DNA of 37,446 nt from Candidatus Dormiibacterota bacterium (GTDB lineage Bacteria; Chloroflexota; Dormibacteria; Aeolococcales; Aeolococcaceae), in assembly GCA_003142035.1 (NCBI GenBank), contig PLOF01000043.1, positions 129,529-166,974 on the forward strand, in the 5' to 3' direction. Below are positions 9,675 through 34,202 of this stretch, one piece after another (the first letter of the stretch is position 1; every line of letters starts with the position of its first letter). The position numbers and the translations under genes are program-made. Under the pieces are notes generated by a model that saw only the letters and a program-made list of their open reading frames with translations, had not been told where the DNA came from and ran no database searches.

Positions 9675-10646
9675 ATGGGTTCCCTGGCGGGACGCGATCT
9701 GATCTCAATCGCCGATCTCTCCGCAGCCGAGATCACCGAGGTCCTGGACGTGGCCTCAGCGCTGAAGGCTGGCGCGGATCCCGGCCGCCCCCTTGCCGGC
9801 CGCAACCTGGCCATGATCTTCCAGCGGCCGAGCAATCGCACCAGGGTCTCCTTCGAGGTGGCCGTGCGGCACCTCGGCGGGCATCCCATCCCGCTCTTCA
9901 ACAGCGAGATCCAGATCGGCGAGCGGGAGTCGACGGCGGACATCAGCCGCATCCTCGACCGCTACGTCGACGGCATTGTGGCCCGGCTCAGCCACCATCG
10001 GGACCTGGTCACCATGGCGCGCGCAGCCCGCGGTCCGGTGGTCAACGCCATGACCGACCGCGAGCATCCCTGCCAGGTGCTCGCCGACTGCCTGACCGTC
10101 CGGGAGCTGCTCGGCCACCTGGCGGGCGCCCGGGTCTGCTACGTGGGCGATGGCAACAACGTCTGCACCTCCTGGATCTATGCGGCCAGCCTGCTCGGGA
10201 TCGACCTGCGCGTGGTCGGGCCGGAGGGCTACGAGCCGCACCCCGCGGTGCTGGAGCGCGCCGAGGCGCTCGCCGGCGGCGGTTCGACGGTCCGCCTCTC
10301 CCATGAGGCGGCCGCGAGCCTCGAGGACGCCGAGATCATCTACACCGACGTCTGGACCAGCATGGGGCAGGAGGCGGAGCAGCAGCAGCGTCGCGACGAC
10401 TTTGCCCACCTGCAGGTCAACGACGGCCTGCTCGCCCAGGCTCCGCCGACCGCGAAGGTCATGCACTGCCTGCCCGCTCACCGCGGTGAGGAGATTACGG
10501 ACTCGGTCCTCGACGGTCCCCAGTCGGTGGTGTTCGACCAAGCCGAGAACCGGCTCTGGGCGCAGGAGGCGCTGCTCAGCCTGATCTTCAGCGGTGAGCT
10601 CCCCACTGGCCGCGCGGCCGGCCGGGGCGGCCTGATTCCCTCATGA
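9675..10646 (+). CDS. argF: Ornithine carbamoyltransferase
   Basis: A 323-residue enzyme of arginine synthesis that makes citrulline from ornithine and carbamoyl phosphate. The carbamoyl-phosphate motif reads PSNRTRVSFE (usual STRTR, so Thr is Asn), and HPCQVLADCLTV supplies the HPxQ motif. DVWTSMGQE and MHCLPAHRGEEI are the ornithine-binding signatures that separate this enzyme from aspartate carbamoyltransferase. The frame extends 17 codons upstream, but the ATG at 9675 fits the family start. Its TGA overlaps the cdaA ATG (ATGA), so it is co-transcribed with the c-di-AMP genes. No other arginine genes are nearby. A catabolic or acetylornithine role is possible but less likely. Confidence 0.92.
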   Translation: MGSLAGRDLISIADLSAAEITEVLDVASALKAGADPGRPLAGRNLAMIFQRPSNRTRVSFEVAVRHLGGHPIPLFNSEIQIGERESTADISRILDRYVDGIVARLSHHRDLVTMARAARGPVVNAMTDREHPCQVLADCLTVRELLGHLAGARVCYVGDGNNVCTSWIYAASLLGIDLRVVGPEGYEPHPAVLERAEALAGGGSTVRLSHEAAASLEDAEIIYTDVWTSMGQEAEQQQRRDDFAHLQVNDGLLAQAPPTAKVMHCLPAHRGEEITDSVLDGPQSVVFDQAENRLWAQEALLSLIFSGELPTGRAAGRGGLIPS

Positions 10647-11512
10647 CTGAATTCATCCACAGCGCCCTGGTCTTCCTCGGGGCGGTCGGCATCCGTGACC
10701 TCGTCGATATCGTCATCGTCGCCTTCCTGCTGTATCAGCTCTTCAAGCTGATCCGGGGCACGCAGGCAGTGCAGCTGCTGGTCGGGCTGGCGGTGCTGCT
10801 CCTGATCGGGCTGCTCGCCGAGGTCTTCCAGCTCCGCCTCCTCCAGTTCATCTTCGCCAACGCCGGGACAGCGATCCTGATCGGCGTCATCGTCCTCTTC
10901 CAGCCCGAGCTGCGCCGGGCACTGGACCAGGTCGGGCGGCTGGGCACGGTGCGTTTCATCATGGGACGGCACAACGCCCAGCCGGTGGCACGGACCGTGG
11001 AGGAGGTGATCCGGGCCGCGGCCACCCTCAGCGAGGGGCGAACCGGCGCTCTGATCGTCTTCGAGCGCGAGACCGGCCTGGAGAATGTCGCGGTGAGCGG
11101 GGTGAGGGTCAATGGCGACGTCACCGCCGAGATCCTCACCACCATCTTCTTCATTGGCTCGCCGCTCCACGACGGAGCCGTCATCATCCGCGACACCCGG
11201 CTGATCGCCGCCGGCTGCGTGCTCCCCCTCGCCGAGGCGCTTCCCGGGGTCGGCCGGATGGGCACGCGGCACCGCGCCGCCCTCGGTCTCACCCTCCAGT
11301 CCGACGCCGTGATCCTGATCGTCAGCGAGGAGACCGGGCTGATCAGCCTCGCCTACGGCGGCAAGCTCTACCGTGGCCTGGACCACGACAAGCTCCAGGA
11401 GATGCTGACCACGCTGGTGCTCCGACCGGTGACCCGCCGGCCCGGTGCCGGCATCCGGCCCCTGGTCCGGAGCGGGGCGGCACTGCGGGCGCTGGGCCGG
11501 CGCAACCCCTGA
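10643..11512 (+). CDS. cdaA: Diadenylate cyclase CdaA (membrane DAC)
   Basis: A 289-residue protein that condenses two ATP into cyclic di-AMP. Three membrane helices lie at about residues 20-36, 44-62 and 66-86, followed by the DAC domain with SPLHDGAVII (DGA at 177-179) and MGTRHRAALG (207-212), the two catalytic signatures. c-di-AMP controls K+ and osmolyte transport and cell-wall homeostasis. It overlaps argF by ATGA and is followed with a one-base TGATG overlap by the cdaR gene, the standard partner. In Bacillota the usual third gene is glmM, but here glmS follows cdaR. Confidence 0.96.
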   Translation: MTEFIHSALVFLGAVGIRDLVDIVIVAFLLYQLFKLIRGTQAVQLLVGLAVLLLIGLLAEVFQLRLLQFIFANAGTAILIGVIVLFQPELRRALDQVGRLGTVRFIMGRHNAQPVARTVEEVIRAAATLSEGRTGALIVFERETGLENVAVSGVRVNGDVTAEILTTIFFIGSPLHDGAVIIRDTRLIAAGCVLPLAEALPGVGRMGTRHRAALGLTLQSDAVILIVSEETGLISLAYGGKLYRGLDHDKLQEMLTTLVLRPVTRRPGAGIRPLVRSGAALRALGRRNP

Positions 11513-12525
11513 TGCCCGGTCTTGTCACTCGCAACTGGCGTCTCAAGCTGCTCGCCGTGGTGCTCGCGATCTTCAGCTGGGCCGGGGTCGTCCTGGCGAC
11601 CAATCCCCCGGGCACCCGTGCCGTGTCGCTCCCGGTGCCGCAGCCTCCGTCCCCGGAAGTCAGCCTGCCCGCCGGCTACATGCTCACCCAGCCGATCCCC
11701 AACCTCACGGTGGACATCACCGGGACCGAGGACCACCTCAACGCTTTCAGCGCATCGAGCCTCCAGGTCACCATCGACTACGACGTGATCCGGGCGGTCG
11801 GCCAGAATGTCCCCGCCACCGTCCGGCTACCGGTCAGGATCACCAACACCGACCCCAACATCGACCTCGACGACCCGCCGGCGTCGATCGAGGCGCAGGT
11901 CGACAGCTCGGGGTCGGCCAGTGAGCCCGTCCAGGTCGTGGTGAGCCATGCTCCGCCGCCGGGCTACCAGGACAACCCCGGGGTGGCGACCCCGGCCACG
12001 GTGACGGCCACTGGGCCGGAGCACGAGCTGGTCGGCATCGTGATCAAGACCCAGCCGATCGACCTCTCCAACCAGCGGGCAAACTTCGACGCGTCCAACA
12101 TCCTCGTCTACCCCTACAGCGCTCAGGGCAGGTACCTCTCCGACGTGAACCTCAGCCCGGCCGCGGTCAACGTGGCGATCACCGTGGTGGGGGTGGATAC
12201 CAGCCGGACGAGCTCCGTCGTGCTCGGTGTGATCACCGGAGCGGCCGCCGGCACCCAGGTCACCGTGGACACCTACAGTCCGATGACGGTGACGCTCACC
12301 GGCTCGCAGGACATCATCAACGGGGCCTCGCTGGCAACCTTGACCACCGGCGGCATCGACGTCGCCGGCCAGACCGGGACGGTGACCTACAAGGTGCCCA
12401 TCGAGCTCCCGACCGGGATCACCGCGAACCCCTCCACCGTGACGGCGACGATCACCGTGACCCTGCTTCCCACACCGACCCCGGCTCCCACCTCCACGCC
12501 GACGAGCTCGAGCGCCGCCACATGA
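11512..12525 (+). CDS. cdaR: CdaR-like YbbR-domain regulator of CdaA
   Basis: A 337-residue protein with one N-terminal membrane helix (about residues 8-28, LKLLAVVLAIFSWAGVVLAT). About three YbbR repeats outside the membrane follow (about 35-130, 140-230 and 232-320), each ending in a beta-rich stretch such as LSPAAVNVAITVVG. The last residues are a Thr/Pro/Ser-rich tail (PTPTPAPTSTPTSS). In Firmicutes CdaR binds CdaA and tunes its activity. The ATG overlaps the cdaA stop by one base, which supports coupled synthesis. The Thr/Pro tail is not usual and may reach into the wall. Confidence 0.9.
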   Translation: MPGLVTRNWRLKLLAVVLAIFSWAGVVLATNPPGTRAVSLPVPQPPSPEVSLPAGYMLTQPIPNLTVDITGTEDHLNAFSASSLQVTIDYDVIRAVGQNVPATVRLPVRITNTDPNIDLDDPPASIEAQVDSSGSASEPVQVVVSHAPPPGYQDNPGVATPATVTATGPEHELVGIVIKTQPIDLSNQRANFDASNILVYPYSAQGRYLSDVNLSPAAVNVAITVVGVDTSRTSSVVLGVITGAAAGTQVTVDTYSPMTVTLTGSQDIINGASLATLTTGGIDVAGQTGTVTYKVPIELPTGITANPSTVTATITVTLLPTPTPAPTSTPTSSSAAT

Positions 12526-12613
12526 GGCGTAACCGGGGCGCGGCCGCGCCCGTTGGACCTCGGAGGGGGCGGCAGAACCTGGAGGGAGACCTGGTGAGTG
12601 GAGCCTGCCGCTG
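12526..12613 (+). promoter_or_regulatory. glmS leader with short Shine-Dalgarno-led mini-ORF
   Basis: GGAGG at 12581-12585 lies eight bases before a GTG at 12594 that opens a six-codon frame (MSGACR). Its TGA (12612-12614) overlaps the glmS ATG by one base. The strong ribosome site is badly spaced for glmS itself, so ribosomes may reach glmS by termination-reinitiation. I see no glmS ribozyme core in this 88-base gap. Confidence 0.45.
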
Positions 12614-14452
12614 ATGTGCGGCATCATCGGCTATGTCGGGGCGCACCCGGCCACCCCCGTGCTCCTCGACAGCCTCCAGCGCCTCGAGTACCGCGGCTAC
12701 GACTCCGCGGGGATCGCGGTCCTCGACGGGGCCAATGGCGGGCGCCACACCGTGGTCAAGAGCGACCGCAAGGTGGCCGACCTGGTCGCCCGCTGCGAGC
12801 GCGACGGCATCCCGGAGGGGACGATCGGCATCGGGCACACGCGCTGGGCCACCCACGGCCGCCCGACGGTGGTCAACGCCCACCCGCACCACGACTGCAA
12901 GGGGCGGATCCAGCTCATCCACAACGGGATCATCGAGAACTACCGTGAGCTCCGCGCCGAGCTGGTCGCCCGCGGGCACCGGCTCAGCAGCGAGACCGAT
13001 ACCGAGGTGCTGGCCCACCTCATCGAGGAGCTGTTCACCGGGGACCTCGCCGAGGCGACCCGGGCTGCGCTCCGCCGCGTCGAGGGCGCCTACGCGCTGG
13101 TGGTCATCTCCGCGGACCAGCCCGACACCATCGTCGGCGCCCGCCGCAACGCGCCGCTGGTCGCGGCTTTCGGCGACGGCGAGGCCTTCCTGAGCAGCGA
13201 CATCACCGCGCTGATCCCCTACATCCGCAGGGTCACCCTGATCGGGGAGAACGAGGTGGTCGCCGGCACGCGCCAGGGACTGGTGATCACCTCGCTCGAC
13301 GGCACCCCGGTCACCCCGCGGACCATCGACGTCGACTGGAATGTCGAGCAGGCTCAGAAGGGTGGCTACCCGCACTTCATGCTCAAGGAGATGAACGAGC
13401 AGCCCGAGGCGGTCGAGAACGCCGTCCGTGGCCGCGTCGACGCCCAGGGAGAGGTCGACCTGGTGGGCCTGCTCGACGCGGTGTCGATCCCGGATCTGGA
13501 CGAGGTCCGCGTCATCGGCATGGGCTCCGCCTGGATCGCCGGGCTCTATACGGCCACCGCCATCCAGCAGCTGGCGCGGCTGCGCGCCGGCGTGGAAAAC
13601 GCCAGCGAGTTCCGCTACGGTGACCCCATCATCGACGGGCGCAGCCTGGTCGTCGCCATCTCCCAATCCGGCGAGACGGCCGACACCCTGGCGGCGGTCC
13701 GCGAGGCCAAGCGCCGCGGCGCCCGGGTGGTGGCCGTGACCAACGTCGTCGGCAGCGCCCTCTCGCAGGAGGCCGACGCCGTGCTCTTCATGCAGTCCGG
13801 GCCGGAGATCTGCGTGCTCGCCACCAAGACGCTGGTCGCCCAGATGGTCTGCGGTCTGCTCATCGCGCTCGCGATCGCCAGGGCGCGCGGAGCGCTCTCC
13901 GCGGAGCGGCATCGCGAGATCGTCTCCGAGCTTCTCCAGGTGCCCCAGCGGATCCGCACCTGCCTGGAGCTGGAGCCGCAGCTCGCCGAGATGGCCCAGC
14001 GCTACGCCCACGTCCGCAACACCATCTACATCGCCCGCGGGATTAACATCGCGACCGCCCTCGAGGGAGCGCTGAAGCTCAAAGAGGTCTCCTACATACA
14101 CGCCGAGGGCTACGCCGCCGGTGAGCTCAAGCACGGGCCGATCGCCCTCCTCGACTCCGAGGTGCCGGTGGTGGCGGTGGCCACCCGCTCCGCCACCCTC
14201 ACCAAGATGCTCAGCAGCATCGCCGAGGTGCGCGCCCGGGACGCTCCGGTGATTGCCGTGGTGACCGAGGGCGACCCCACCGTGGATGCTGAGCTGGCCC
14301 GTGACATGGTGCGCGTGCCGGAGTGCAGCGAGCTCATCTCGCCACTCATCAACGTCGTGCCGCTGCAGCTGTTCGCGTATCACGTGGCCGTCGAGCGCGG
14401 CTGTGACGTGGATCAGCCACGCAACCTGGCCAAGTCGGTGACGGTCGAGTAG
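12614..14452 (+). CDS. glmS: Glutamine-fructose-6-phosphate aminotransferase (isomerizing)
   Basis: A 612-residue protein, the usual length. It makes glucosamine-6-phosphate from fructose-6-phosphate and glutamine for peptidoglycan. The mature N-terminus begins with nucleophile Cys2 (MCGIIGYVG), followed by RGYDSAGIAV, HTRWATHGRP and HNGIIENYRELR of the glutaminase domain (residues 1 to about 235). Two SIS sugar-isomerase domains follow, with SQSGETADTLAA and IARGINIATALEGALKLKEVSYIHAEGYAAGELKHGPIAL. It ends with the typical PRNLAKSVTVE. It follows cdaR and abuts acpS/nnrD, so wall precursor supply and c-di-AMP synthesis share an operon. Confidence 0.97.
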   Translation: MCGIIGYVGAHPATPVLLDSLQRLEYRGYDSAGIAVLDGANGGRHTVVKSDRKVADLVARCERDGIPEGTIGIGHTRWATHGRPTVVNAHPHHDCKGRIQLIHNGIIENYRELRAELVARGHRLSSETDTEVLAHLIEELFTGDLAEATRAALRRVEGAYALVVISADQPDTIVGARRNAPLVAAFGDGEAFLSSDITALIPYIRRVTLIGENEVVAGTRQGLVITSLDGTPVTPRTIDVDWNVEQAQKGGYPHFMLKEMNEQPEAVENAVRGRVDAQGEVDLVGLLDAVSIPDLDEVRVIGMGSAWIAGLYTATAIQQLARLRAGVENASEFRYGDPIIDGRSLVVAISQSGETADTLAAVREAKRRGARVVAVTNVVGSALSQEADAVLFMQSGPEICVLATKTLVAQMVCGLLIALAIARARGALSAERHREIVSELLQVPQRIRTCLELEPQLAEMAQRYAHVRNTIYIARGINIATALEGALKLKEVSYIHAEGYAAGELKHGPIALLDSEVPVVAVATRSATLTKMLSSIAEVRARDAPVIAVVTEGDPTVDAELARDMVRVPECSELISPLINVVPLQLFAYHVAVERGCDVDQPRNLAKSVTVE

Positions 14453-15703
14453 ATGCACCGGCTGGTCGTCGGCGTGGACGTCACCTCGATCGACCGCATT
14501 GCGGCCGCGATGCGGCGCCATCCCCGCTTCGCGGAGAAGATCTTCACCGAGGCGGAGCGTCGCCGTGCCGGGTCAAGGCCGGAGCGCTTCGCCAGCCGGT
14601 GGGCGGCCAAGGAGGCGGTGATGAAGTGGTACGGCGGAGCCGGCCTGCGCATCCCCCCCTACCACGCCATCGAGGTGATCAACCGGCGGGGCGGCGCCCC
14701 CGAGGTCCGGGTGCACGGCCAGCCCACTGGGATCGCGATCAGCATGACCCATGACGCCGGGGTGGCGATCGCCGCGGCGGTGGCGCCGCTGGACGGTCCG
14801 GGCGGTCCGCTGGCGCTGCCCCCGCCCGAGGCACTGCGGCTGCCCGCCCGCCCCGCCACCGCTCACAAGGGGACCTTTGGCACCGTGGTCGTCATCGCCG
14901 GCGCGATGGGTACGGCAGGCGCGGCCGTGCTGGCCGGACGGGGGGCCGCCCGGGCCGGGGCCGGCCTGGTTCGCGTCTGCGTCCCGGCCGGGGTCCACCC
15001 CATGGTGGCGACGCTCTGCCTGGAGCTGATGGCGCACCCCCTCGGGGAGCCCGGCGCCTCCGGGCTCGATGCCGCCGGGGTGGTGGAGCTCCGCCAGGTC
15101 CACCTCCCGGTGGCGAGCGCCGCGGTGATCGGCCCCGGCCTCGGGCGCGCCCCGGCCACCGAGGCGGCCCTCCTGGACCTGCTGGCAACGCTCACCGTCC
15201 CCGCCGTGGTCGACGCCGACGGGCTCAACATTGCCGCTGCCGCCGGGTTTGACTGGCGGAGCTGCGCGGCGCCGCTGGTGCTGACCCCGCACCCGGCCGA
15301 GATGGCGCGCCTGGCCGGGCTGAGCACCGCCGAGGTCCAGGCCGACCGGGCCGGGCTGGCCGCCAGGTTCGCCGCCGAGCACGGCGTGACCCTGGTCCTC
15401 AAGGGGGCGGAGACGGTGGTCGCCGCCCCGGACGGTCGCATCCACGTCGACCGGCATCAGACTGTGGCCCTCGCCACCGGTGGGACCGGCGACGTCCTGA
15501 GCGGTGTCTGCGGAGCCATGCTCGCCGCCGGGCTGGATGGCTTCGACGCCGCCGTGGCGGCGGTCACCATCCACGCCGAGGCCGGCTGCCTGGTCGAGGC
15601 GGAGCGGGGAAGGGCGGGCGCCCTGGCCGGTGACGTCATCGAGATGCTCCCCGCCGCCCAGGAGCGGCTTCGCCGCGCATTGGAGCGTCTCGGGCGTGGA
15701 TGA
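14453..15703 (+). CDS. Fusion: holo-ACP synthase (AcpS) + ADP-dependent NAD(P)H-hydrate dehydratase (NnrD)
   Basis: A 416-residue two-domain protein. Residues 1 to about 112 are AcpS, which transfers 4'-phosphopantetheine from CoA to acyl carrier protein: VVGVDVTSIDRI with Asp9, FAEKIFTEAE, and RFASRWAAKEAVMK with Glu54 are the metal and substrate motifs. Residues from about 125 are NnrD, which repairs NAD(P)H hydrates: HKGTFGTVVVIAGAMGTAGAA, VVDADGLN, LTPHPAEMARLAGL and GGTGDVLSGVCGAML. NnrD is more often fused to the epimerase NnrE; no epimerase domain is visible here. The ATG directly abuts the glmS stop and its end overlaps alr by eight bases. In actinobacteria separate acpS and nnr genes occupy this place. 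Confidence 0.9.
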   Translation: MHRLVVGVDVTSIDRIAAAMRRHPRFAEKIFTEAERRRAGSRPERFASRWAAKEAVMKWYGGAGLRIPPYHAIEVINRRGGAPEVRVHGQPTGIAISMTHDAGVAIAAAVAPLDGPGGPLALPPPEALRLPARPATAHKGTFGTVVVIAGAMGTAGAAVLAGRGAARAGAGLVRVCVPAGVHPMVATLCLELMAHPLGEPGASGLDAAGVVELRQVHLPVASAAVIGPGLGRAPATEAALLDLLATLTVPAVVDADGLNIAAAAGFDWRSCAAPLVLTPHPAEMARLAGLSTAEVQADRAGLAARFAAEHGVTLVLKGAETVVAAPDGRIHVDRHQTVALATGGTGDVLSGVCGAMLAAGLDGFDAAVAAVTIHAEAGCLVEAERGRAGALAGDVIEMLPAAQERLRRALERLGRG

Positions 15704-16922
15704 GGGACGGGACGGCGGGCCCACGGCCCGGCGACTGGTGTGTCCGGCTCGGCCGGCCCACCGAGGGGCGGCGACCGCGTCTGCCGCCGTCCGGCAGCAG
15801 TGCACGCGATGGGCGGAAATTGACACGGCGGCCATCCGGCACAACCTTGGGGTGATCCGCGAGGTGGTGGGCGGCGGTGTTGCGGTCATGGCCATGGTCA
15901 AGGCCGGCGGCTACGGCCACGGGGACGCCCTCGCCGCGGCCGCTGCCCTGGACGGCGGTGCCTCCTGGCTCGGTGTCGCCTCCGCGGAGGAGGCCTTCCG
16001 CCTCCGGGCCGAGGGCTTCGCCTGCCCCATTCTCATCGTCGGCGGAGCCTCTCCGGCGCATCTCGCCGGGCTGGTCGCTGCCGATGTCGACCTCGCGGTC
16101 TGGGATCCGGACCAGGTTGCCGCCGTCGCGGCAATTGCCGGCGCCAAGCCGGCCCGCCTCCACCTCAAGATCGACAGCGGCATGGGCCGGCTCGGCGCCC
16201 TCCCCGCCCAGCTTCCGGAGCTGTTGGCCGCGGTCGAACGGGCCGGGGCGAGGGTCGAGCCGGTGGCGGCATTCACCCACTTCGCCGACGCCGAAGACGA
16301 CCCCGAGTACACCCTCGGTCAGGACGCGGTGTTCCTCGAGGCGGCCGCCTCACTGCAGCGACGCTGGCCGGGCCTGCTCCTCCATGCCGCCAGCAGCGCG
16401 GCCGCCCTCGGACTCCCCACGACCCGCCACGACCTGGTCCGCTGCGGCATCGCCATCTATGGCTACGCGCACGCGGGAGTCGAGGGGGCGGCCCGGCTCC
16501 GCCCGGCGATGTCCTTCCACGCCCGGGTGACCCAGGTCAAGACGTTGCGGGGCGGGCAGAGCGTCGGCTACGGGCGCACCTGGATCGCGGAGCGGGAAAC
16601 CCGCGTGGCCGCCATCGCGGCCGGCTACGCCGACGGCGTCCAGCGGGCCCAGTCGAACTGCGGCTCGGTGCTAGTGGGCGGCCACCGCTGCCCGATCATC
16701 GGGCGCGTCAGCATGGATCAGCTGACCGCCGACGTCTCGCTCGTCGAGGGGGTGAGGGCGGGTGACGAGGCGGTGCTCTTCGGCCGCCAGGGTGGCGGAT
16801 GGCTCGGCGCCGACGACGTCGCCTCCGCGGTCGGCACCATCAGCTATGAGGTGCTCTGTGCCGTGTCGGCGCGGGTGCCGCGGCTCCGGGTCGATGCCGG
16901 TGAGGGTCAGCCGGGCCCGTAG
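15696..16922 (+). CDS. alr: Alanine racemase
   Basis: A PLP enzyme giving D-alanine for peptidoglycan, 408 residues from the GTG at 15696 (usual 360-390). The PLP lysine is Lys69 in AMVKAGGYGHG, where most homologues have VKADAYGHG or VKANAYGHG. LHLKIDSGMGRLG, VGYGRTW, AAGYADG with the active-site Tyr, and RVSMDQLTADV are present. The chosen GTG overlaps the nnrD end and has GGAG ten bases upstream. GTG at 15738 is an alternative that trims a disordered, Arg-rich N-terminus. It is the last gene of the glmS-acpS/nnrD-alr run and converges on the CHAP gene 33 bases away. Confidence 0.93.
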   Translation: MDEGRDGGPTARRLVCPARPAHRGAATASAAVRQQCTRWAEIDTAAIRHNLGVIREVVGGGVAVMAMVKAGGYGHGDALAAAAALDGGASWLGVASAEEAFRLRAEGFACPILIVGGASPAHLAGLVAADVDLAVWDPDQVAAVAAIAGAKPARLHLKIDSGMGRLGALPAQLPELLAAVERAGARVEPVAAFTHFADAEDDPEYTLGQDAVFLEAAASLQRRWPGLLLHAASSAAALGLPTTRHDLVRCGIAIYGYAHAGVEGAARLRPAMSFHARVTQVKTLRGGQSVGYGRTWIAERETRVAAIAAGYADGVQRAQSNCGSVLVGGHRCPIIGRVSMDQLTADVSLVEGVRAGDEAVLFGRQGGGWLGADDVASAVGTISYEVLCAVSARVPRLRVDAGEGQPGP

Positions 16923-27158: not shown

Positions 27159-28838
27159 ATGCCTGCTAAGCAACTTCGATTCGACACCGAGGCGAGGCAG
27201 CTGCTCCGCCATGGCGTGGACGCGGTGGCCGATGCCGTCGCGGTCACCCTCGGTCCGCGCGGGCGTTCGGTGGTCCTGGACAAGAAGTTCGGAGCGCCGC
27301 TCGTCACCACGGACGGGGTCACGATCGCCCGTGACCTCGATTTCAAGGACCACTTCGAGAACATGGGGGCCCAGCTCCTGCGCGAGGTCGCGGTCAAGAC
27401 CAATGACCTCGCCGGGGACGGCACCACCACCGCCACCGTGCTGAGCCGGGCGATGATCGATGAGGGGCTGCGCCTGCTCGGCGCCGGCGCCTTCCCGGTC
27501 GAGTTGCGCCAGGGGATGCTGGCCGCCGCCGAGGCCGCCGCCGCTGCGGTGCGCGAGCGCTCCCATCCCGTCGATACCAATGAGGACATCCGCCGCGTCG
27601 CCACCATCAGCGCGGACGACGCGGAGATCGGCGAGATGCTCGCCGACGCCTTTGCCAAGGTGGGCAAGGAGGGTGTGGTCACCGTCGAGTCGGCGGACGG
27701 CATCGAGACCACCGTGGAGGTGGTCGAGGGCATGCAGCTCGACCGCGGCTACGTCTCCGCGTACCTGGTCACCGACCAGAAGGAGATGGTCGCCGAGCTG
27801 GACCACCCGGCCATCCTCATCACCGACTCCAAGATCAGCGCCGTCCGGGACCTGCTCCCGGTGCTCGAGCTGGTGGCCGGGGCCAAGCGGCCCCTGCTCA
27901 TCGTGGCCGAGGACGTCACCGCGGAGGCGCTCGCCACCCTCGTCGTCAACCGCATGCGCGGCACGCTCACGGCGGTCGCCATCAAGGCCCCCGGCTTCGG
28001 CGACCGCCGCAAGGCGATGCTCCAGGACCTGGCCGTCCTCACCGGGGCCACCGTGGTCAGCGAGGAGGTCGGTATCCGCTTGGACGGCGTCGTCGCCCGC
28101 CATCTCGGCACGGCTGACCGGGTGACCGTCACCAAGGACGACACCACGGTGGTGGGCGGCGGTGGCGATCGCAAGGCCATCGACGCGCGCTGCGAGGAGA
28201 TCCGCCTGCAGGTCGAGGAGACCGACTCCGATTGGGACCGGGAGAAGCTGCAGGAGCGGCTGGCCCGGTTGGTCGGAGGGGTCGCCCAGATCAAGGTGGG
28301 GGCCGCCACCGAGGTGGAGATGAAAGAGCGCAAGGCGCGCGTCGAGGACGCTCTCCACGCCACCCGCGCCGCTCTCGAGGAGGGCTGCGTCGCCGGTGGG
28401 GGCGTTGCCCTGATCCGGGCCCGCGACGCCATCGATGCGCTCAAGCTGGACGGAGACGCCCTCGCGGGAGCGCGCGTCGTCTTCCAGGCGCTCTCCGCAC
28501 CGCTCAAGCAGATCGCGGCCAACGCCGGGCTGGAGGGCGCGGTGGTGGTCAACCATGTCGCCGAGCTGACCGGGGACGACGGCTTCGACGTGGTCACCGA
28601 GGAGTATGGGAACCTCGTCGAGCGTGGGATCATCGACCCCACCAAGGTCGTGATCACCGCCCTCACGTCCGCCACCTCGATCGCCACCATGATCATGACC
28701 ACCGAGGCTCTCATCGCCGACGCCCCCGAGCCCGAGGACGAGGACGAGGAGGGAGCCGGCCACTCTCACGGTGGTGGCGGTGGCGGCGGGTTCGGCGGCG
28801 GTGGCTTCGGCGGCGGCGACGACGACATGGACTTCTGA
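27159..28838 (+). CDS. groEL: Chaperonin GroEL
   Basis: A 559-residue chaperonin. VTLGPRGRSVVLDKKFGAPLVTTDGVTIARDL and TNDLAGDGTTTATVLSRAM (with the catalytic Asp of DGTTT) form the ATP site. The apical domain carries VEGMQLDRGYVSAYLVTD and IKAPGFGDRRKAMLQDLAVLTG. The equatorial domain closes with EEGCVAGGGVALI and DPTKVVITALTSATSIATM. The C-terminal tail is unusual: instead of GGM repeats it is acidic, then HSH, then Gly/Phe repeats ending DDDMDF. AAAGGAG upstream supports this ATG. Confidence 0.98.
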   Translation: MPAKQLRFDTEARQLLRHGVDAVADAVAVTLGPRGRSVVLDKKFGAPLVTTDGVTIARDLDFKDHFENMGAQLLREVAVKTNDLAGDGTTTATVLSRAMIDEGLRLLGAGAFPVELRQGMLAAAEAAAAAVRERSHPVDTNEDIRRVATISADDAEIGEMLADAFAKVGKEGVVTVESADGIETTVEVVEGMQLDRGYVSAYLVTDQKEMVAELDHPAILITDSKISAVRDLLPVLELVAGAKRPLLIVAEDVTAEALATLVVNRMRGTLTAVAIKAPGFGDRRKAMLQDLAVLTGATVVSEEVGIRLDGVVARHLGTADRVTVTKDDTTVVGGGGDRKAIDARCEEIRLQVEETDSDWDREKLQERLARLVGGVAQIKVGAATEVEMKERKARVEDALHATRAALEEGCVAGGGVALIRARDAIDALKLDGDALAGARVVFQALSAPLKQIAANAGLEGAVVVNHVAELTGDDGFDVVTEEYGNLVERGIIDPTKVVITALTSATSIATMIMTTEALIADAPEPEDEDEEGAGHSHGGGGGGGFGGGGFGGGDDDMDF

Positions 28839-28857
28839 CCTGGATCGGTTCCAGGTC
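28837..28857 (+). terminator. Short hairpin at the groEL stop, possible terminator
   Basis: An 8-base stem (GACCTGGA, 28837-28844, with TCCAGGTC, 28850-28857) overlaps the end of the stop codon with a five-base loop. No T-run follows, so termination here is uncertain. The remaining bases to 28974 hold the next promoter and no gene. Confidence 0.4.
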
Positions 28858-28961
28858 TGAGCCCAGGGTGGTCGCGCGGGGTCAGCTGGCGCTCGCCGGT
28901 TGGACCGTCGCTCCTGGGCTCGGCGGAGGGCCGGAGGCTGTGCGCCACGCGGTCTGCCGCG

Positions 28962-28967
28962 TACAGT
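28962..28967 (+). promoter_or_regulatory. -10 box placed for leaderless acetyltransferase/asnB transcript
   Basis: TACAGT ends seven bases before the GTG at 28975, with no Shine-Dalgarno between. This indicates a leaderless promoter for the two-gene operon. Confidence 0.5.
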
Positions 28968-28974
28968 TGCGCCC

Positions 28975-29598
28975 GTGCTGACCGTGGAAACGCCCCGGCT
29001 CCTGTTCACCTCCACCCCGATCTCGGTGATGCGCCGGCGGCTCACCCTATCGGACTTCCTGGCCGAGATCGTGGTCGGCCCCTGCGAGAGCGCCGGCCCG
29101 GAGGGCCGTCTGACCGTCCACTTCCCCGAGGAGTGGCCGGGGGAGGACGCCCTTCGGATGTTCCCCATCTGGATCGCCCGCCGCGAGCGGTCCGCCGATC
29201 CGGGGCCGTGGTGCGACGGGGTGGTGGTGCGCCGTGAGGACCGCCTGGCGGTGGGGAGCATCGGCTTCAAGTCGCGCCCGGACACGACTGGCACCGTCGA
29301 GATCGGCTACGCCGTCAACCGCTTCCTCTGGGGGCGCGGTTACGCCACCGAGATGGTGCAGGGCATCGTCGCCTGGGCCCTCACCCGACCCGAGGTGCGC
29401 CGCGTGACCGCCGAATGCCTGGAGCGCAACCCGGCCTCGGCGCGGGTGTTGACCAAGAGCGGGTTTCTGCAGGTGGGACGGCGCCCCAGCGTGGAGGGTG
29501 AGCTGCTGCTCTGGGAGTGCCGGACGCCGGTGGCGAGGCCCGATGGCCTCGCGTCGGAGAGGGCCCGGATCGCCGGCCAGCCCGCCGGGCAGGCGTAG
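28975..29598 (+). CDS. GNAT N-acetyltransferase (RimJ/RimL-like)
   Basis: A 207-residue acetyltransferase. LTVETPRLLFTSTPISVMRRRL is the usual start of the group; then GSIGFKSRPDTTGTVEIGYAVNRFLWGRGYATEMVQGIVAWAL contains the acetyl-CoA loop (GRGYATE), and VTAECLERNPASARVLTKSGFLQVGRR is the conserved final motif. Relatives acetylate N-terminal amines of proteins or amino groups of small molecules; the substrate here is unknown. The frame is open 25 codons upstream, but GTG at 28975 fits both family start and the -10 spacing. The stop lies four bases before the asparagine-synthetase fusion gene, so the two form an operon and may act on the same compound. Confidence 0.87.
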   Translation: MLTVETPRLLFTSTPISVMRRRLTLSDFLAEIVVGPCESAGPEGRLTVHFPEEWPGEDALRMFPIWIARRERSADPGPWCDGVVVRREDRLAVGSIGFKSRPDTTGTVEIGYAVNRFLWGRGYATEMVQGIVAWALTRPEVRRVTAECLERNPASARVLTKSGFLQVGRRPSVEGELLLWECRTPVARPDGLASERARIAGQPAGQA

Positions 29599-29602
29599 CC
29601 CC

Positions 29603-32239
29603 GTGTGCGGCATCTGCGGCTTCACCGGCCGCCGCGACCCCACCCTGCTCCGGGCCATGGCCGCGTCGATCCGGCACCGCGGCCCCGACGACGACGGCTT
29701 CCTCGAGACCGATGGCGCCTCGCTCGGCTTCCGCCGGCTGGCCATCATCGACCTCGACACCGGTGCCCAGCCGATGTCGACGGACGGCGACCGCCTCCAC
29801 ATCGTCTTCAACGGCGAGATCTACAACTACCGCGAGCTGCGCACGGAGCTGGAGGCGGAGGGGCGGCGGTTCATCACGAGGAGCGACACCGAGGTCGCCC
29901 TGCAGGCGTACGCGCAGTGGGGCCCGGCCGCCTTCCAGCGGTTCAACGGCATGTGGGCGATCGCCCTTCTGGACCGCCGCGGCCCAGAGCCAGAGCTCGT
30001 CCTCTGCCGCGATCACTTCGGCATCAAGCCGCTCTTCTACGCGGCGCACGACGAGCGGCTGGTCTTCGCCTCGGAGATCAAGGCCATCCTCGAGGACCCG
30101 ACCTTCCCCCGCAGGGTCGACGAGCAGCAGCTGTACGAATACCTCCGCTTCGGCCTCTACGACCACAACGACCTCACCTTCTTCGCCGGCATCCGCCAGG
30201 TCGCGGCCGGCGCGTACGTCACCGTCGACCCGGCCGGTGCCACCCGTGAGACCCGGTACTGGACGCCGAAGCTGAGCGAGGACGCCGATCCGGACCCGAA
30301 GGAGTTCCTCCGCCTCTTCACGCGCGCGGTCGAACGCCGCCTGGTCGCCGACGTGCCGGTCGGCACCTGCCTCTCGGGAGGCCTCGATTCCTCTTCCATC
30401 GTCTGCGTGATGGACCGGCTGCTCGCCCAGCACGTGCCCGACTCGGTCTCGCTCGGCGACCGTCTCAAGACCTTCTCGGCGGTCTTCCCCGGCGACCCCA
30501 TCGACGAGCGGAGCTACGTCGAGGCGGTGCTGGCCGTCACCTCCGCCGACCCCACCTGGGTGCAGCCGACCTCGGAGCAGTGGCTCGCCGAGCTGGAGAC
30601 CTGGGTCTGGCACGCGGAGGAGCCGATGATCACCACCGCGCCCTACGCAATGTGGTCGGTGATGCGCGCCGCCAGCGAGAAGGTCACCGTCCTCCTCGAC
30701 GGGCAGGCCGGTGACGAGCTGCTCGGCGGTTACGTCCCTTACCAGTACGTCTACCTCCGCCAGCTGCTCCGTGAGCACCGCTACCGGGAGTTCGCCGTGG
30801 AGTCCGCGAAGGCGCGGGACACCGTCGGCCGGCTGGCCCGCCGCCGGCTCTGGGAGGGTCGCCACCAGGTGGACGTGGGCTCGCTGCTCCGCCCCGCCTG
30901 GACGAGCGGGAAGAAGCGGCCTGACGATCCCCGCGTCCAGGACGATCTCAAGAAGCGGCTGCTTCAGGACCTCACCACCTTCTCGCTGCCCTCGCTGCTC
31001 CGCTACGAGGACCGCAACTCGATGGCCCACTCCATGGAGTCGCGGCTCCCCTTCCTTGACCAGGAGCTGGTGGAGTGGATCCTCCGGCTGCCCGCCTCGG
31101 CGATCGTCTCCGGGGGGTGGTCGCGACGCATCATGCGCGAGGCGATGCGCGGCGTCCTGCCCGAGACGATCCGCCGGCGGCGTCGCAAGGTCGGCTTCAC
31201 CACGCCCGAGTTCCGCTGGTTCCGCCAGCAACGCTCGTCGATCCAGTCGCTGATGCGGTCGCCCTCCTTCCAGTCACGGCCGTATTGGGACGCGGACGCG
31301 GTCGCCGACGCATTCCGCGTCGCCTGCGTCGGGGGCAGCGAGGAGTCGCTCTTCTTCTGGCGCACCGTCAACGTCGAGCTCTGGCTGCGGATGTACTTCG
31401 AGGGCGGGAGCCACGGCTCCGCGTCCGGCCCCACCCCGGGCAGCTCATACGCCTTCACCGCCCAGGGCGACCGCGCGGCGGGGGCGGCACTCGGCGCCGA
31501 GCGGCTGGTCGACGCCGCCCACCCCAACCCCGGCCGCCACCTGATCATCCGGCGTGACGGCCGGCCCTGGGCGCGCATCCCGCTCCGCGCCGAGCTGGTG
31601 CGCAACCGGGACGACCTGGGCACGGCGGTGGGGGTGGCCCTGGAGAAGGCGCGGGCCGGCGGCATTGCCCTGGAGCCCGGCGACGTGGTCGCGATGAGCG
31701 AAAAGGTGGTGGCCATCACCCAGGGGCGCTCCTTTCCCATGGACGAGATCCGGGTCAGCCCGCTCGCCCGGCTGCTCTCCCGCTTCGTCAGCCGGGTCCC
31801 GATCGGCATCGGCCTCGGCAGGCCCCAGACCATGCAGCTCGCCCTGGAGGAGGCGGGGGCACCGCGCATCCTCCTCGCCGCCGCCTGCGCCGCCGTCACC
31901 CGCCCCTTCGGGGTCCGGGGCGTCTTTTACCGGGTGGCCGGATCCCGGGTGTCGGCCATCGACGGCCCGACCGCCTACACCCTTCCTCCCTACAACACCC
32001 ACGCCAGCAAGGCGCCGAGCGACCCGGACGGGGTCGCCGAGCGGATGAGCCGGAGCCTCAGTGAGAAGTCCGGGGTGGACATCGCCGTCGCCGTGGTCGA
32101 CACCAACGATCTGGCCGCCGACATCCTCGGGGCGAGCGCCGGTGTCGACCGCACCGCGATCAGCCGGGTGCTCGCCGACAATCCGATGGGTCAGACCGGC
32201 GAGCAGACCCCCTTCTGCATCCTCCGGCGGCTCGCGTAA
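29603..32239 (+). CDS. Fusion: asparagine synthetase B (glutamine-hydrolysing) + F420-0:gamma-glutamyl ligase (CofE)-like domain
   Basis: An 878-residue fusion. Residues 1 to about 605 are AsnB: nucleophile Cys2 (MCGICGFTG), RHRGPDDDG, FNGEIYNYRELR, SDTEVALQAY in the glutaminase part, then the ATP pyrophosphatase loop CLSGGLDSSSIV (about 255-265), LDGQAGDELLGGY and RYEDRNSMAHSMESRLPFLD. After a Gly/Ser/Ala linker (about 605-645), residues 646-878 resemble the F420-0:L-glutamate ligase family: LEPGDVVAMSEKVVAITQGRSFPMDEI, GIGLGRPQTMQLALEE, GVFYRVAGSRVSAIDGP, SDPDGVAERM, VAVVDTNDLAADILGAS and DNPMGQTGEQTPFCILRR. The frame is continuous across the junction. The start is GTG, four bases after the acetyltransferase stop. 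The amide product is unknown. Confidence 0.88.
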   Translation: MCGICGFTGRRDPTLLRAMAASIRHRGPDDDGFLETDGASLGFRRLAIIDLDTGAQPMSTDGDRLHIVFNGEIYNYRELRTELEAEGRRFITRSDTEVALQAYAQWGPAAFQRFNGMWAIALLDRRGPEPELVLCRDHFGIKPLFYAAHDERLVFASEIKAILEDPTFPRRVDEQQLYEYLRFGLYDHNDLTFFAGIRQVAAGAYVTVDPAGATRETRYWTPKLSEDADPDPKEFLRLFTRAVERRLVADVPVGTCLSGGLDSSSIVCVMDRLLAQHVPDSVSLGDRLKTFSAVFPGDPIDERSYVEAVLAVTSADPTWVQPTSEQWLAELETWVWHAEEPMITTAPYAMWSVMRAASEKVTVLLDGQAGDELLGGYVPYQYVYLRQLLREHRYREFAVESAKARDTVGRLARRRLWEGRHQVDVGSLLRPAWTSGKKRPDDPRVQDDLKKRLLQDLTTFSLPSLLRYEDRNSMAHSMESRLPFLDQELVEWILRLPASAIVSGGWSRRIMREAMRGVLPETIRRRRRKVGFTTPEFRWFRQQRSSIQSLMRSPSFQSRPYWDADAVADAFRVACVGGSEESLFFWRTVNVELWLRMYFEGGSHGSASGPTPGSSYAFTAQGDRAAGAALGAERLVDAAHPNPGRHLIIRRDGRPWARIPLRAELVRNRDDLGTAVGVALEKARAGGIALEPGDVVAMSEKVVAITQGRSFPMDEIRVSPLARLLSRFVSRVPIGIGLGRPQTMQLALEEAGAPRILLAAACAAVTRPFGVRGVFYRVAGSRVSAIDGPTAYTLPPYNTHASKAPSDPDGVAERMSRSLSEKSGVDIAVAVVDTNDLAADILGASAGVDRTAISRVLADNPMGQTGEQTPFCILRRLA

Positions 32240-32327
32240 CACGCTGTCGGATTCGCGCCGACCGTCTCCGACATCTGCTCCTGAAGCGTGACCAGGAAGC
32301 GACCTGTCCGTAGTCTGTGACACGAGA

Positions 32328-34202
32328 GTGACGGTTACTCTGTTCGCGCCGATGTTCGAATCCGGGGCACTCCACGCCGCCACCCCGTACACCCCTGCTG
32401 CGCAGCGGTCTGACCGCCTCGCTGTGCGGGGGATCACGGCCGCGTGGACAGCCGGAGCGGCGGTCCTGATCGTCGTCGGGTTGTGGCTCCAGCACTCCCG
32501 GCTGGATTTCGCCTCGATGGTCCCCGTGGTCCTCCTTGCGCTGGCCGCCCTCGCGCTCGCGCTGCCCCTGGAGCGCGTGCCCGTCCAGGTGCAGGCGGTG
32601 GCCGCGTGCTGCGCCATCGCCCTGGTACTCGGCGTCGAGCTGATCTTCCGGGTCCGGGCGGTCGACGTCGCCGCCCTGGTCACTCTCCCCCTCGCCGTGC
32701 TGGCCCTTCGCCACGATGACAGGGCCTTCCGCATCGGCATCGGCCTGGCCCTCGTCGAGGGCCTGATCGGTCTGGCGGTCGTCCGCGATCCCTACCTCGT
32801 GGTGGCCACCCTGACCGCGATCCTCGCCGGCGTCACGGTCAGGGCGCTGAGCGGTCAGGGCGCCGATCGGGCACGATTCGACTCGGTCGCGTACACGGAT
32901 TTCCTCACCAACTGTCCCAATCGCCGGGCTCTCCACGCCGAGCTGCCGCACCGGCTGGAGGCGGCACAGCACCGGGAGACCTCGCTGGCCGTCGCCGTCA
33001 TCGACCTGGACAGGTTCGGCTCCTTCAATGAGGACTGGGGCCACGCCGCCGGGGACCGGCTGCTCACCGATGTGGCCACGGTGCTCCGGTTCACTCAGCG
33101 GAGCGACCCCGACCTCCCCGGCCTCACGTACCTCGCCCGGGTCGGCAACGACGAGTTCGCCGTCGTCCTCGAGCGCCTCACCACGACCGGTGTTGCCGAG
33201 ATGATCCGCGACGTGGAGACCGATCTCCCCGCCGGTTGCACGGTCAGTGTGGGAATCGCCTTCTGGGATCGCCGGGAGACCGCGGACGACCTCATGAACC
33301 GCTCCCTCCGTGCCCTCGCCGCTGCCGGCAAGGGGATGGGCGGGGGCCGCGTCGTGGTCGACGAGGGTGCGGGGTCTCGGGCCAGGAGCTGGCTGGAATC
33401 GGTCCCGGCCATCGTCGCCCGCAAGGAGATCGAATCCGTCTATCAACCCATCCGCGACCTCAACACCGGTCGCCTCATCGGTTACGAGGCGCTCGCCCGT
33501 CCCACCGGGGCGCCCAACGAGACCGAGGTCGAGGGGATGTTCGCGGCGGCCCGCCGCCTGGGCGTCTCCCGCGAGCTGGAGACCCTCTCCCAGGTCTCGG
33601 CGATGAGCGGCGCCCACCGCCTGCTCGCCCGGGGCGGCTCGCTCTTCATCAACATCAGCGTCGGAGCCTTCACCGACCCCGATCGTGACCTCGACGTGAT
33701 CCTGGGGCACCTCCGGGACGCCTCCCTGCGGCCGACCCAGATCGTCCTCGAGGTCAACGAGCAGATCACCCGCTTCGGCCGCTTCGCCGAGGCCTGCGCC
33801 CGCTACCGGCGGGCCGGGTTCCGCTTCGCGATGGACGATGTCGGCGAGGGGCTGTCGACCATCGAGGCGATCGCGGTCGTCCGTCCCGAGTTCATCAAGG
33901 CCGGCAAGAGTCTGATCGTCACCGCCGACGAGGCCGGCTCGGCGGCCGTCATTCGCGGGCTGGTAGAGGTCGCTCGCAGTCTGGGCGGCGAGATCATCGC
34001 CGAGGGACTGGAGACCCGAGAGGATTGCGCCCGCATGCTCGGACTGGGCGCCGCCCTGGGGCAGGGCTGGGCCCTGGGCACTCCGAAGCGGCTGCGCGAC
34101 GCGCTGGCCGCGCGGGACGGGGAGGAGGTGGCCCCCGAGGGCACGCACGGCACCGACGGGCCGGAGCGGGCCCGTCCCGTCCTCGTCCCCCGCCCGATCT
34201 GA
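32328..34202 (+). CDS. Membrane GGDEF-EAL protein with degenerate GGDEF motif
   Basis: A 624-residue protein. Six membrane helices (about residues 36-172) precede a GGDEF domain: YTDFLTNCPNRRAL, IDLDRFGSFNEDWGHAAGDRLL and RVGNDEFAVV (271-280), in which the second Gly of the signature is Asn. The EAL domain begins YQPIRDLNTGRLIGYEALAR (about 370) and keeps the metal and catalytic positions INIS, LEVNE, AMDDVG, EFIKAG, IIAEGLET and QGWALG. I infer a c-di-GMP phosphodiesterase with a GGDEF part that is weak or regulatory. TAGTCT (32311-32316) lies 11 bases before the GTG start. The Pro/Glu-rich last 35 residues look disordered. 32240-32327 holds nothing else visible. Confidence 0.9.
   Translation: MTVTLFAPMFESGALHAATPYTPAAQRSDRLAVRGITAAWTAGAAVLIVVGLWLQHSRLDFASMVPVVLLALAALALALPLERVPVQVQAVAACCAIALVLGVELIFRVRAVDVAALVTLPLAVLALRHDDRAFRIGIGLALVEGLIGLAVVRDPYLVVATLTAILAGVTVRALSGQGADRARFDSVAYTDFLTNCPNRRALHAELPHRLEAAQHRETSLAVAVIDLDRFGSFNEDWGHAAGDRLLTDVATVLRFTQRSDPDLPGLTYLARVGNDEFAVVLERLTTTGVAEMIRDVETDLPAGCTVSVGIAFWDRRETADDLMNRSLRALAAAGKGMGGGRVVVDEGAGSRARSWLESVPAIVARKEIESVYQPIRDLNTGRLIGYEALARPTGAPNETEVEGMFAAARRLGVSRELETLSQVSAMSGAHRLLARGGSLFINISVGAFTDPDRDLDVILGHLRDASLRPTQIVLEVNEQITRFGRFAEACARYRRAGFRFAMDDVGEGLSTIEAIAVVRPEFIKAGKSLIVTADEAGSAAVIRGLVEVARSLGGEIIAEGLETREDCARMLGLGAALGQGWALGTPKRLRDALAARDGEEVAPEGTHGTDGPERARPVLVPRPI

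Follow-up and report, generated by a model that had tools for sequence, protein, structure and literature searches.

Partnerships between a carboxylate-amine ligase and an AsnB-type amidotransferase have been described in D-Asp cross-bridge synthesis, in which AslA acts with AsnH, and asnB1 is encoded beside murE (PMC4155827). Similarly, the ligase Ngg acts with AsnO, an AsnB-type amidotransferase, in making N-acetylglutaminylglutamine amide (NAGGN; PMC8070244). The CofE fold, for its part, is known for F420 and, in chlamydiae, for folate: the chlamydial protein CT611 (COG1478) complements Escherichia coli folC (PMC1971073). Here, we analyze a gene that joins an AsnB to a CofE-like domain. The gene lies on contig PLOF01000043.1 of a Candidatus Dormiibacterota bacterium from soil or peat, in a stretch of 37,446 nucleotides that we call the window, and it occupies a single frame of 878 codons on the forward strand, from a GTG at 29603 to a stop at 32239. 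The reading that we favor, with a probability of about 0.4, is that the gene specifies a bifunctional amide-forming enzyme, in which a CofE-fold ligase and an AsnB amidotransferase act on one small product. The original prediction knew of no described pathway using this fusion, and our literature searches likewise yielded nothing on such a fusion.

A conserved fusion and its split forms

Our phylum sample comprised 151 genomes, and the data are those of metagenome-assembled genomes (MAGs). Strong relatives of the C-terminal domain (approximately 90 bits or more) exist in 31 of the 151; the other 12 of the 43 genomes listed gave cross-matches of approximately 20 bits, apparently to canonical CofE. 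An uninterrupted AsnB/CofE-like frame is present in at least 15 sampled genomes from several genera (G000, G001, G003, G004, G006, G011, G012, G015, G018, G020, G024, G027, G065, G073, and G090). Fusion proteins of the same genus are 92–95% identical, and the within-genus ratio of nonsynonymous to synonymous substitution rates (dN/dS) is 0.10–0.14 for the AsnB half and 0.16–0.20 for the CofE-like half. Both halves are under purifying selection. Thus, the conserved frames and the dN/dS values rule out a frameshift or an assembly join, and the continuous gene that had been proposed is genuine. The fusion also occurs in the Roizmanbacteria MAG L082 and, complete, in the Actinobacteria MAG L041, and a contig-end fragment of the Actinobacteria MAG L040 carries the end of an AsnB together with a CofE-like domain. 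We also observed, in a Pseudonocardia MAG, a 651-aa fusion (L078:1858-3813) whose AsnB half lacks Cys2 and the synthetase core.

The same two components are encoded separately in other relatives. Specifically, G021, G025, and G028 possess an asnB (611–612 aa) and a cofE-like gene (234–235 aa) that share a 4-bp stop/start overlap, and this split pair resides at the fusion's chromosomal site, between groESL and alr-nitrilase-uvrD-ligA. In G016 and G112, the pair is adjacent at other sites. The existence of a fused chain and of adjacent gene pairs argues that one function is encoded in either form. Quick trees, with Shimodaira–Hasegawa-like approximate likelihood-ratio (SH-aLRT) support only, place the fused CofE-like domains (support 97) and the paired ones (100) in two clades separated by standalone sequences. 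The AsnB tree separates every coupled AsnB, that of L082 among them, from 20 free AsnBs of the phylum by a single branch (SH-aLRT 94). Coupling spans three phyla and both CofE-like clades, always with the same AsnB subfamily, which we read as a subfamily that would travel with CofE-like partners. From the fused and paired arrangements and the shared AsnB subfamily, we infer, on sound grounds, the amide-forming system that had been proposed.

Regarding mobile elements, PADLOC found no match to a defense system, and searches for relatives in plasmid records and in viral contigs returned none. Phage records gave two matches, both unannotated faecal entries (MT835656.1:5930-6664 and MT838774.1:2338-2886), whose CofE-like proteins show 42% and 36% identity; these records are probably bacterial DNA.

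The AsnB half and asparagine supply

Judged by its motifs, the AsnB half is an intact glutamine-dependent amidotransferase/synthetase, as originally described. Cys2, NGE, SGGLDSS, GDEL..GY, and K(V/I)GFTTPE are all present and invariant or nearly so, Pfam recognizes both domains, and the NCBIfam asparagine synthase model TIGR01536 scores 435 bits (cut-off 267). Cys2 is conserved in every relative with a complete N-terminus except the decayed L078. The score for TIGR03104, the AsnO amidotransferase of NAGGN synthesis, is 308 bits, below the cut-off of 570.

The window genome, which is 89.9% complete, encodes no PF00733 protein other than the fusion's AsnB. The genome also encodes a non-discriminating aspartate–tRNA(Asn) ligase (L225, C38:64900-66600) that exceeds two curated cut-offs. 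No asparaginyl-tRNA synthetase (AsnRS) over cut-off was found in the window genome, nor in 14 of the 15 genomes with a fusion or a pair. In cells with a non-discriminating aspartyl-tRNA synthetase (AspRS) and no AsnRS, Asn-tRNA is produced by transamidation, and translation needs no free asparagine. Thus, it is plausible that this sole AsnB serves something other than translation. In other bacteria of this kind, "AsnB" amidates meso-diaminopimelate; the case of a sole AsnB in a cell without AsnRS has been argued for Listeria, and Corynebacterium has LtsA as its sole AsnB (PMC8554201).

The CofE-like domain

The original prediction attributed to the C-terminal domain the landmarks of F420 ligases. 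Homology and fold are upheld. Specifically, PF01996 matches residues 661–835 significantly (53 bits with the whole protein and 58.8 bits with the domain alone; Pfam cut-off 25), and a domain model predicted from 28 relatives, with a predicted local distance difference test (pLDDT) score of 90.7 and a predicted template modeling score of 0.87, has the CofE fold. CofE accounts for its five best Foldseek matches in the PDB (E 1e-10 to 1e-8, probability 1.00); the next match has probability 0.75. Equivalence to CofE is not upheld: the NCBIfam equivalog TIGR01916 gives 30.5–35.9 bits against a cut-off of 180.65, and the predicted ligase site lacks several canonical motifs, considered below. The full-length model is poor (pLDDT 68.7, from 11 sequences), with a low-confidence segment between the domains at residues 602–617.

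A merged alignment with 12 canonical CofEs reveals what remains of the active site. The K and GR of QKxVSKxEGR are kept, as SEKxVAxxQGR, and the DxN aspartate and MGQxxE..P are retained, the latter as DNPxGQxxEQTP. For the IDGP aspartate and the canonical GxDxSN metal aspartate, the two alignments disagree, and the claim that the one preserves the other is withdrawn. The segments by which canonical CofE binds F420 (PMC10861534) are not recognizable in the domain, that region having been replaced. Taken together, the motifs place the domain in a short CofE-like family of 230–250 aa, marked by QGR, IDGP, D(T/A)ND, and DNPxGQxxEQTP, with a remodeled active site. Standalone members exist in Oscillospirales (approximately 66 of 297 genomes), Patescibacteria, Coatesbacteria, and others. 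Standalone proteins from distant phyla show the same motifs in near-invariant form, which implies that the domain has an activity of its own. A second family, of approximately 400 aa, matches only positions 20–85 of the CofE-like profile (approximately 25 bits), and many genomes from the order that includes G162 encode it (e.g., G434:C1:78402-78617); it may be another uncharacterized COG1478-like group.

Relation to F420 and folate

The original prediction also raised a cofactor-F420-like tail as a product, a role favored by the PF01996 homology and by the F420 genes that the window genome carries elsewhere. Those genes form a set of their own: on contig C38, a canonical CofE is encoded beside CofC-like and CofD proteins (cofC-cofE-cofD). 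Moreover, the fusion or pair carriers G007, G009, G011, G012, G015, G025, and G028 possess no CofD over cut-off and no canonical CofE (G011, G012, and G015 being approximately 90% complete), and no CofD match was obtained in any carrier tested from Clostridia or Patescibacteria. By these comparisons and the replaced F420-binding region, the C-terminal domain is something other than an F420 ligase, and the fusion lies outside F420 biosynthesis; an F420-tail role, which we reject, retains only a vanishingly small probability. A second possibility is that, like CT611, the domain works on folate as a gamma-glutamyl ligase and that its fusion to AsnB is incidental. Seven of 28 carriers, including two small Patescibacteria, have no FolC over cut-off, and SHMT is encoded near a standalone CofE-like gene at 3 of 109 loci, all in distant genomes (L046, L052, and L066), accompanied by FTHFS or FolD at two of the three. 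FolC does exceed the cut-off in the other 21 carriers, FolC-like genes scoring below cut-off are present in the window genome, and no folate genes lie near the fusion. FolC replacement is thus unsupported as a general role, and we keep a folate ligase only as a minor and very improbable rival.

Gene neighborhood

The GNAT gene ends 4 bases upstream of the AsnB start, as had been noted. It adjoins the fusion in two genera, the window genus and the neighboring genus of G018, with 4-bp spacing where read; among the remaining genera examined, neither the fusion nor the pair has a GNAT beside it. The GNAT is a local neighbor outside the conserved unit. Given its adjacency in two genera only and its weaker constraint (dN/dS 0.39–0.41), we reject it as a core component, and the suggestion of acetylation as a third step falls with it. 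Nor did the proposed promoter find support: no sigma-70-like site is present in 28600–32600, although the organism may use other promoter types.

On the downstream side, alr directly follows the AsnB/CofE-like unit in nine related genomes, as a single copy in most, and overlaps it by 4 bp in G011, G012, and G015. The idea of an extra racemase beside the pair is rejected because alr there is the single copy in most of these genomes. Dormibacterota loci with alr right after the unit are L104, L105, L097, L098, L099, and L109. In Oscillospirales, approximately 20 of 109 loci (among them L144, L145, L149, L152, L156, L158, L160, L161, L163, L164, L171–L174, and L177) share an alaS-HIT-[APRT]-cofE-like order on one strand, and their CofE-like proteins show identities as low as 35%. 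This order was unseen in a first Clostridia set and emerged in a wider one. At a small number of Clostridia loci, glmS lies no more than 60 bp away, or a glmM, penicillin-binding protein (PBP), or nagB gene is in the vicinity. These enrichments are post hoc, having been noticed after looking. As hints, the alr and alaS-HIT associations point to amino-acid, translation, or cell-wall metabolism without fixing a substrate.

Two further observations concern the window. The fusion is followed immediately by a gene for a GGDEF-EAL protein (32328–34202); L033, L034, and L096 have a similarly sized gene in that place, and other genera lack it. Farther upstream (10643–16922), genes for CdaA-like, YbbR-like, GlmS, AcpS/NnrD-like, and Alr proteins appear consecutively, by a look at the sequence only, Alr being otherwise supported.

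Table 1. Positions in the window of the fusion gene, its domains and motifs, and the neighboring GNAT gene
Feature	Position	Strand	Basis or remark
GNAT gene (Acetyltransf_3, RimJ/RimL-like), 207 aa	28975..29598	+	PF13302, 81.7 bits
AsnB/CofE-like fusion gene, GTG start, 878 aa	29603..32239	+	Sequence, Pfam, conserved fusion in relatives
Cys2, glutaminase (GATase) nucleophile	29606..29608	+	Sequence
GATase_7 (glutamine amidotransferase) match, PF13537, residues 44–163	29732..30091	+	Pfam, 149.8 bits
Asn_synthase, PF00733, residues 235–596	30305..31390	+	Pfam, 253 bits
SGGLDSS pyrophosphate (PPi) loop, residues 258–264	30374..30394	+	Invariant in AsnB alignment
CofE-like C-terminal domain, 255-aa query stretch	31472..32236	+	PF01996, predicted fold
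Motif SEKxVAxxQGR (QKxVSKxEGR in canonical CofE)	31697..31729	+	Alignment
Motif IDGP	31958..31969	+	Equivalence to canonical GxDxSN aspartate uncertain
Motif D(T/A)ND	32099..32110	+	Aligns with canonical D(T/S) aspartate
Motif DNPMGQTGEQTP (LVMGQxxEGxP in canonical CofE)	32177..32212	+	Near-invariant, n = 28 sequences

Proposed function and alternatives

In the bifunctional enzyme that we favor, the CofE-like domain would act as a ligase requiring a metal and a nucleotide, activating a carboxylate by forming an acyl phosphate and coupling it to an amino acid. The AsnB half would amidate a carboxylate of the same small product with glutamine-derived ammonia or, alternatively, would supply the product's amide amino acid. 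The GNAT would not be a necessary component, and F420 biosynthesis would not be involved. The likeliest substrate classes are a cell-wall precursor amino acid and a free peptide osmolyte. Several findings weigh against this proposal. TIGR01536 scores the AsnB half as an ordinary asparagine synthase, standalone Clostridia CofE-like genes have no adjoining AsnB and sit with alaS and HIT, and L078, a rarity in its family, keeps its CofE-like half intact despite the loss of its AsnB active site. Furthermore, the CofE-like family does not keep the canonical SK (of SKxEGR), GxDxSN, or GRxxRxG, and it is approximately 26 residues shorter than canonical CofE, before the MGQ motif. With these positions lost and these residues missing, we can only infer nucleotide use, and even catalysis.

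Some of these findings also speak for other explanations. The most serious is that two independent housekeeping activities share a chain for co-expression, AsnB making free asparagine and the CofE-like half performing the unrelated job of its standalone kin. The equivalog score, the many CofE-like genes without AsnB, the degenerate AsnB of L078, and the low-confidence inter-domain segment are all consistent with such independence, which we nonetheless consider rather unlikely: coupling is confined to one AsnB subfamily across three phyla and two CofE-like clades, the paired genes have retained their overlap, and a cell with a non-discriminating AspRS and no AsnRS can translate without free asparagine. 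That same tRNA arrangement, with a sole AsnB as in Listeria and Corynebacterium, suits a specific form of the favored explanation, in which the AsnB half, an LtsA/AsnB1-type enzyme, would amidate peptidoglycan and the CofE-like half would be a ligase for cell-wall precursors. The single, overlapping alr and the glmS, glmM, PBP, and nagB neighbors agree with this version; cell-wall neighbors are, however, scarce and chosen post hoc, and alr is the ordinary housekeeping copy, making the version distinctly unlikely. Finally, the lost active-site positions could signify a non-catalytic domain, whose degenerate CofE fold would control AsnB by sensing a nucleotide or amino acid. The near-invariance of the same motifs in standalone proteins of distant phyla renders this idea improbable.

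At its broadest, the favored reading would imply an undescribed pathway whose product, a small molecule or cell-wall precursor that is amidated and capped by an amino acid, is built jointly by a non-F420 CofE-fold ligase and AsnBs of a dedicated subfamily, a suggestion that we offer tentatively and regard as somewhat unlikely. If it is true, the standalone ligases of gut Clostridia and Patescibacteria would perform the core step of that chemistry. More generally, the CofE fold has a further branch in gut Clostridia, Patescibacteria, and Dormibacterota, and recurrent coupling to one AsnB subfamily provides the first concrete handle on its job. A CofE-like protein labeled "F420-0:glutamate ligase" by homology is no indicator of F420.

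Comparison with known systems

Each half of the fusion resembles a familiar enzyme. Like CofE (PF01996; PDB 2PHN and 7ULD), the C-terminal domain has the fold (Foldseek E 1e-10, TM-score 0.56–0.62) and the DxN-type and MGQxxE..P motifs. Unlike CofE, it is the shorter protein, has lost SKxEGR, GxDxSN, GRxxRxG, and the F420-binding region, and is found in bacteria without F420. CT611 (FolC2) is likewise a CofE homolog outside F420, whereas fusion carriers generally retain FolC, and no folate gene cluster accompanies the fusion. The other half has all glutaminase and synthetase motifs of AsnB (TIGR01536; 1CT9) but forms a separate subfamily, fused to or paired with a CofE-like protein, and is the only AsnB of a genome without AsnRS.

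As a whole, the fusion would represent the ligase-plus-AsnB design with a CofE-fold ligase; should the pair prove to produce an amidated metabolite or cell-wall unit, that design would be realized in a new way at the level of the fold. NAGGN synthesis also unites an acetyltransferase, a ligase, and an AsnB-type amidotransferase in one operon, but the fusion scores far below the TIGR03104 cut-off, its ligase fold is another, and the GNAT is not conserved with it. In AslA/AsnH and MurE/AsnB1, a carboxylate-amine ligase is again partnered with an AsnB-type amidotransferase, but those ligases are ATP-grasp or Mur enzymes rather than members of the CofE fold.

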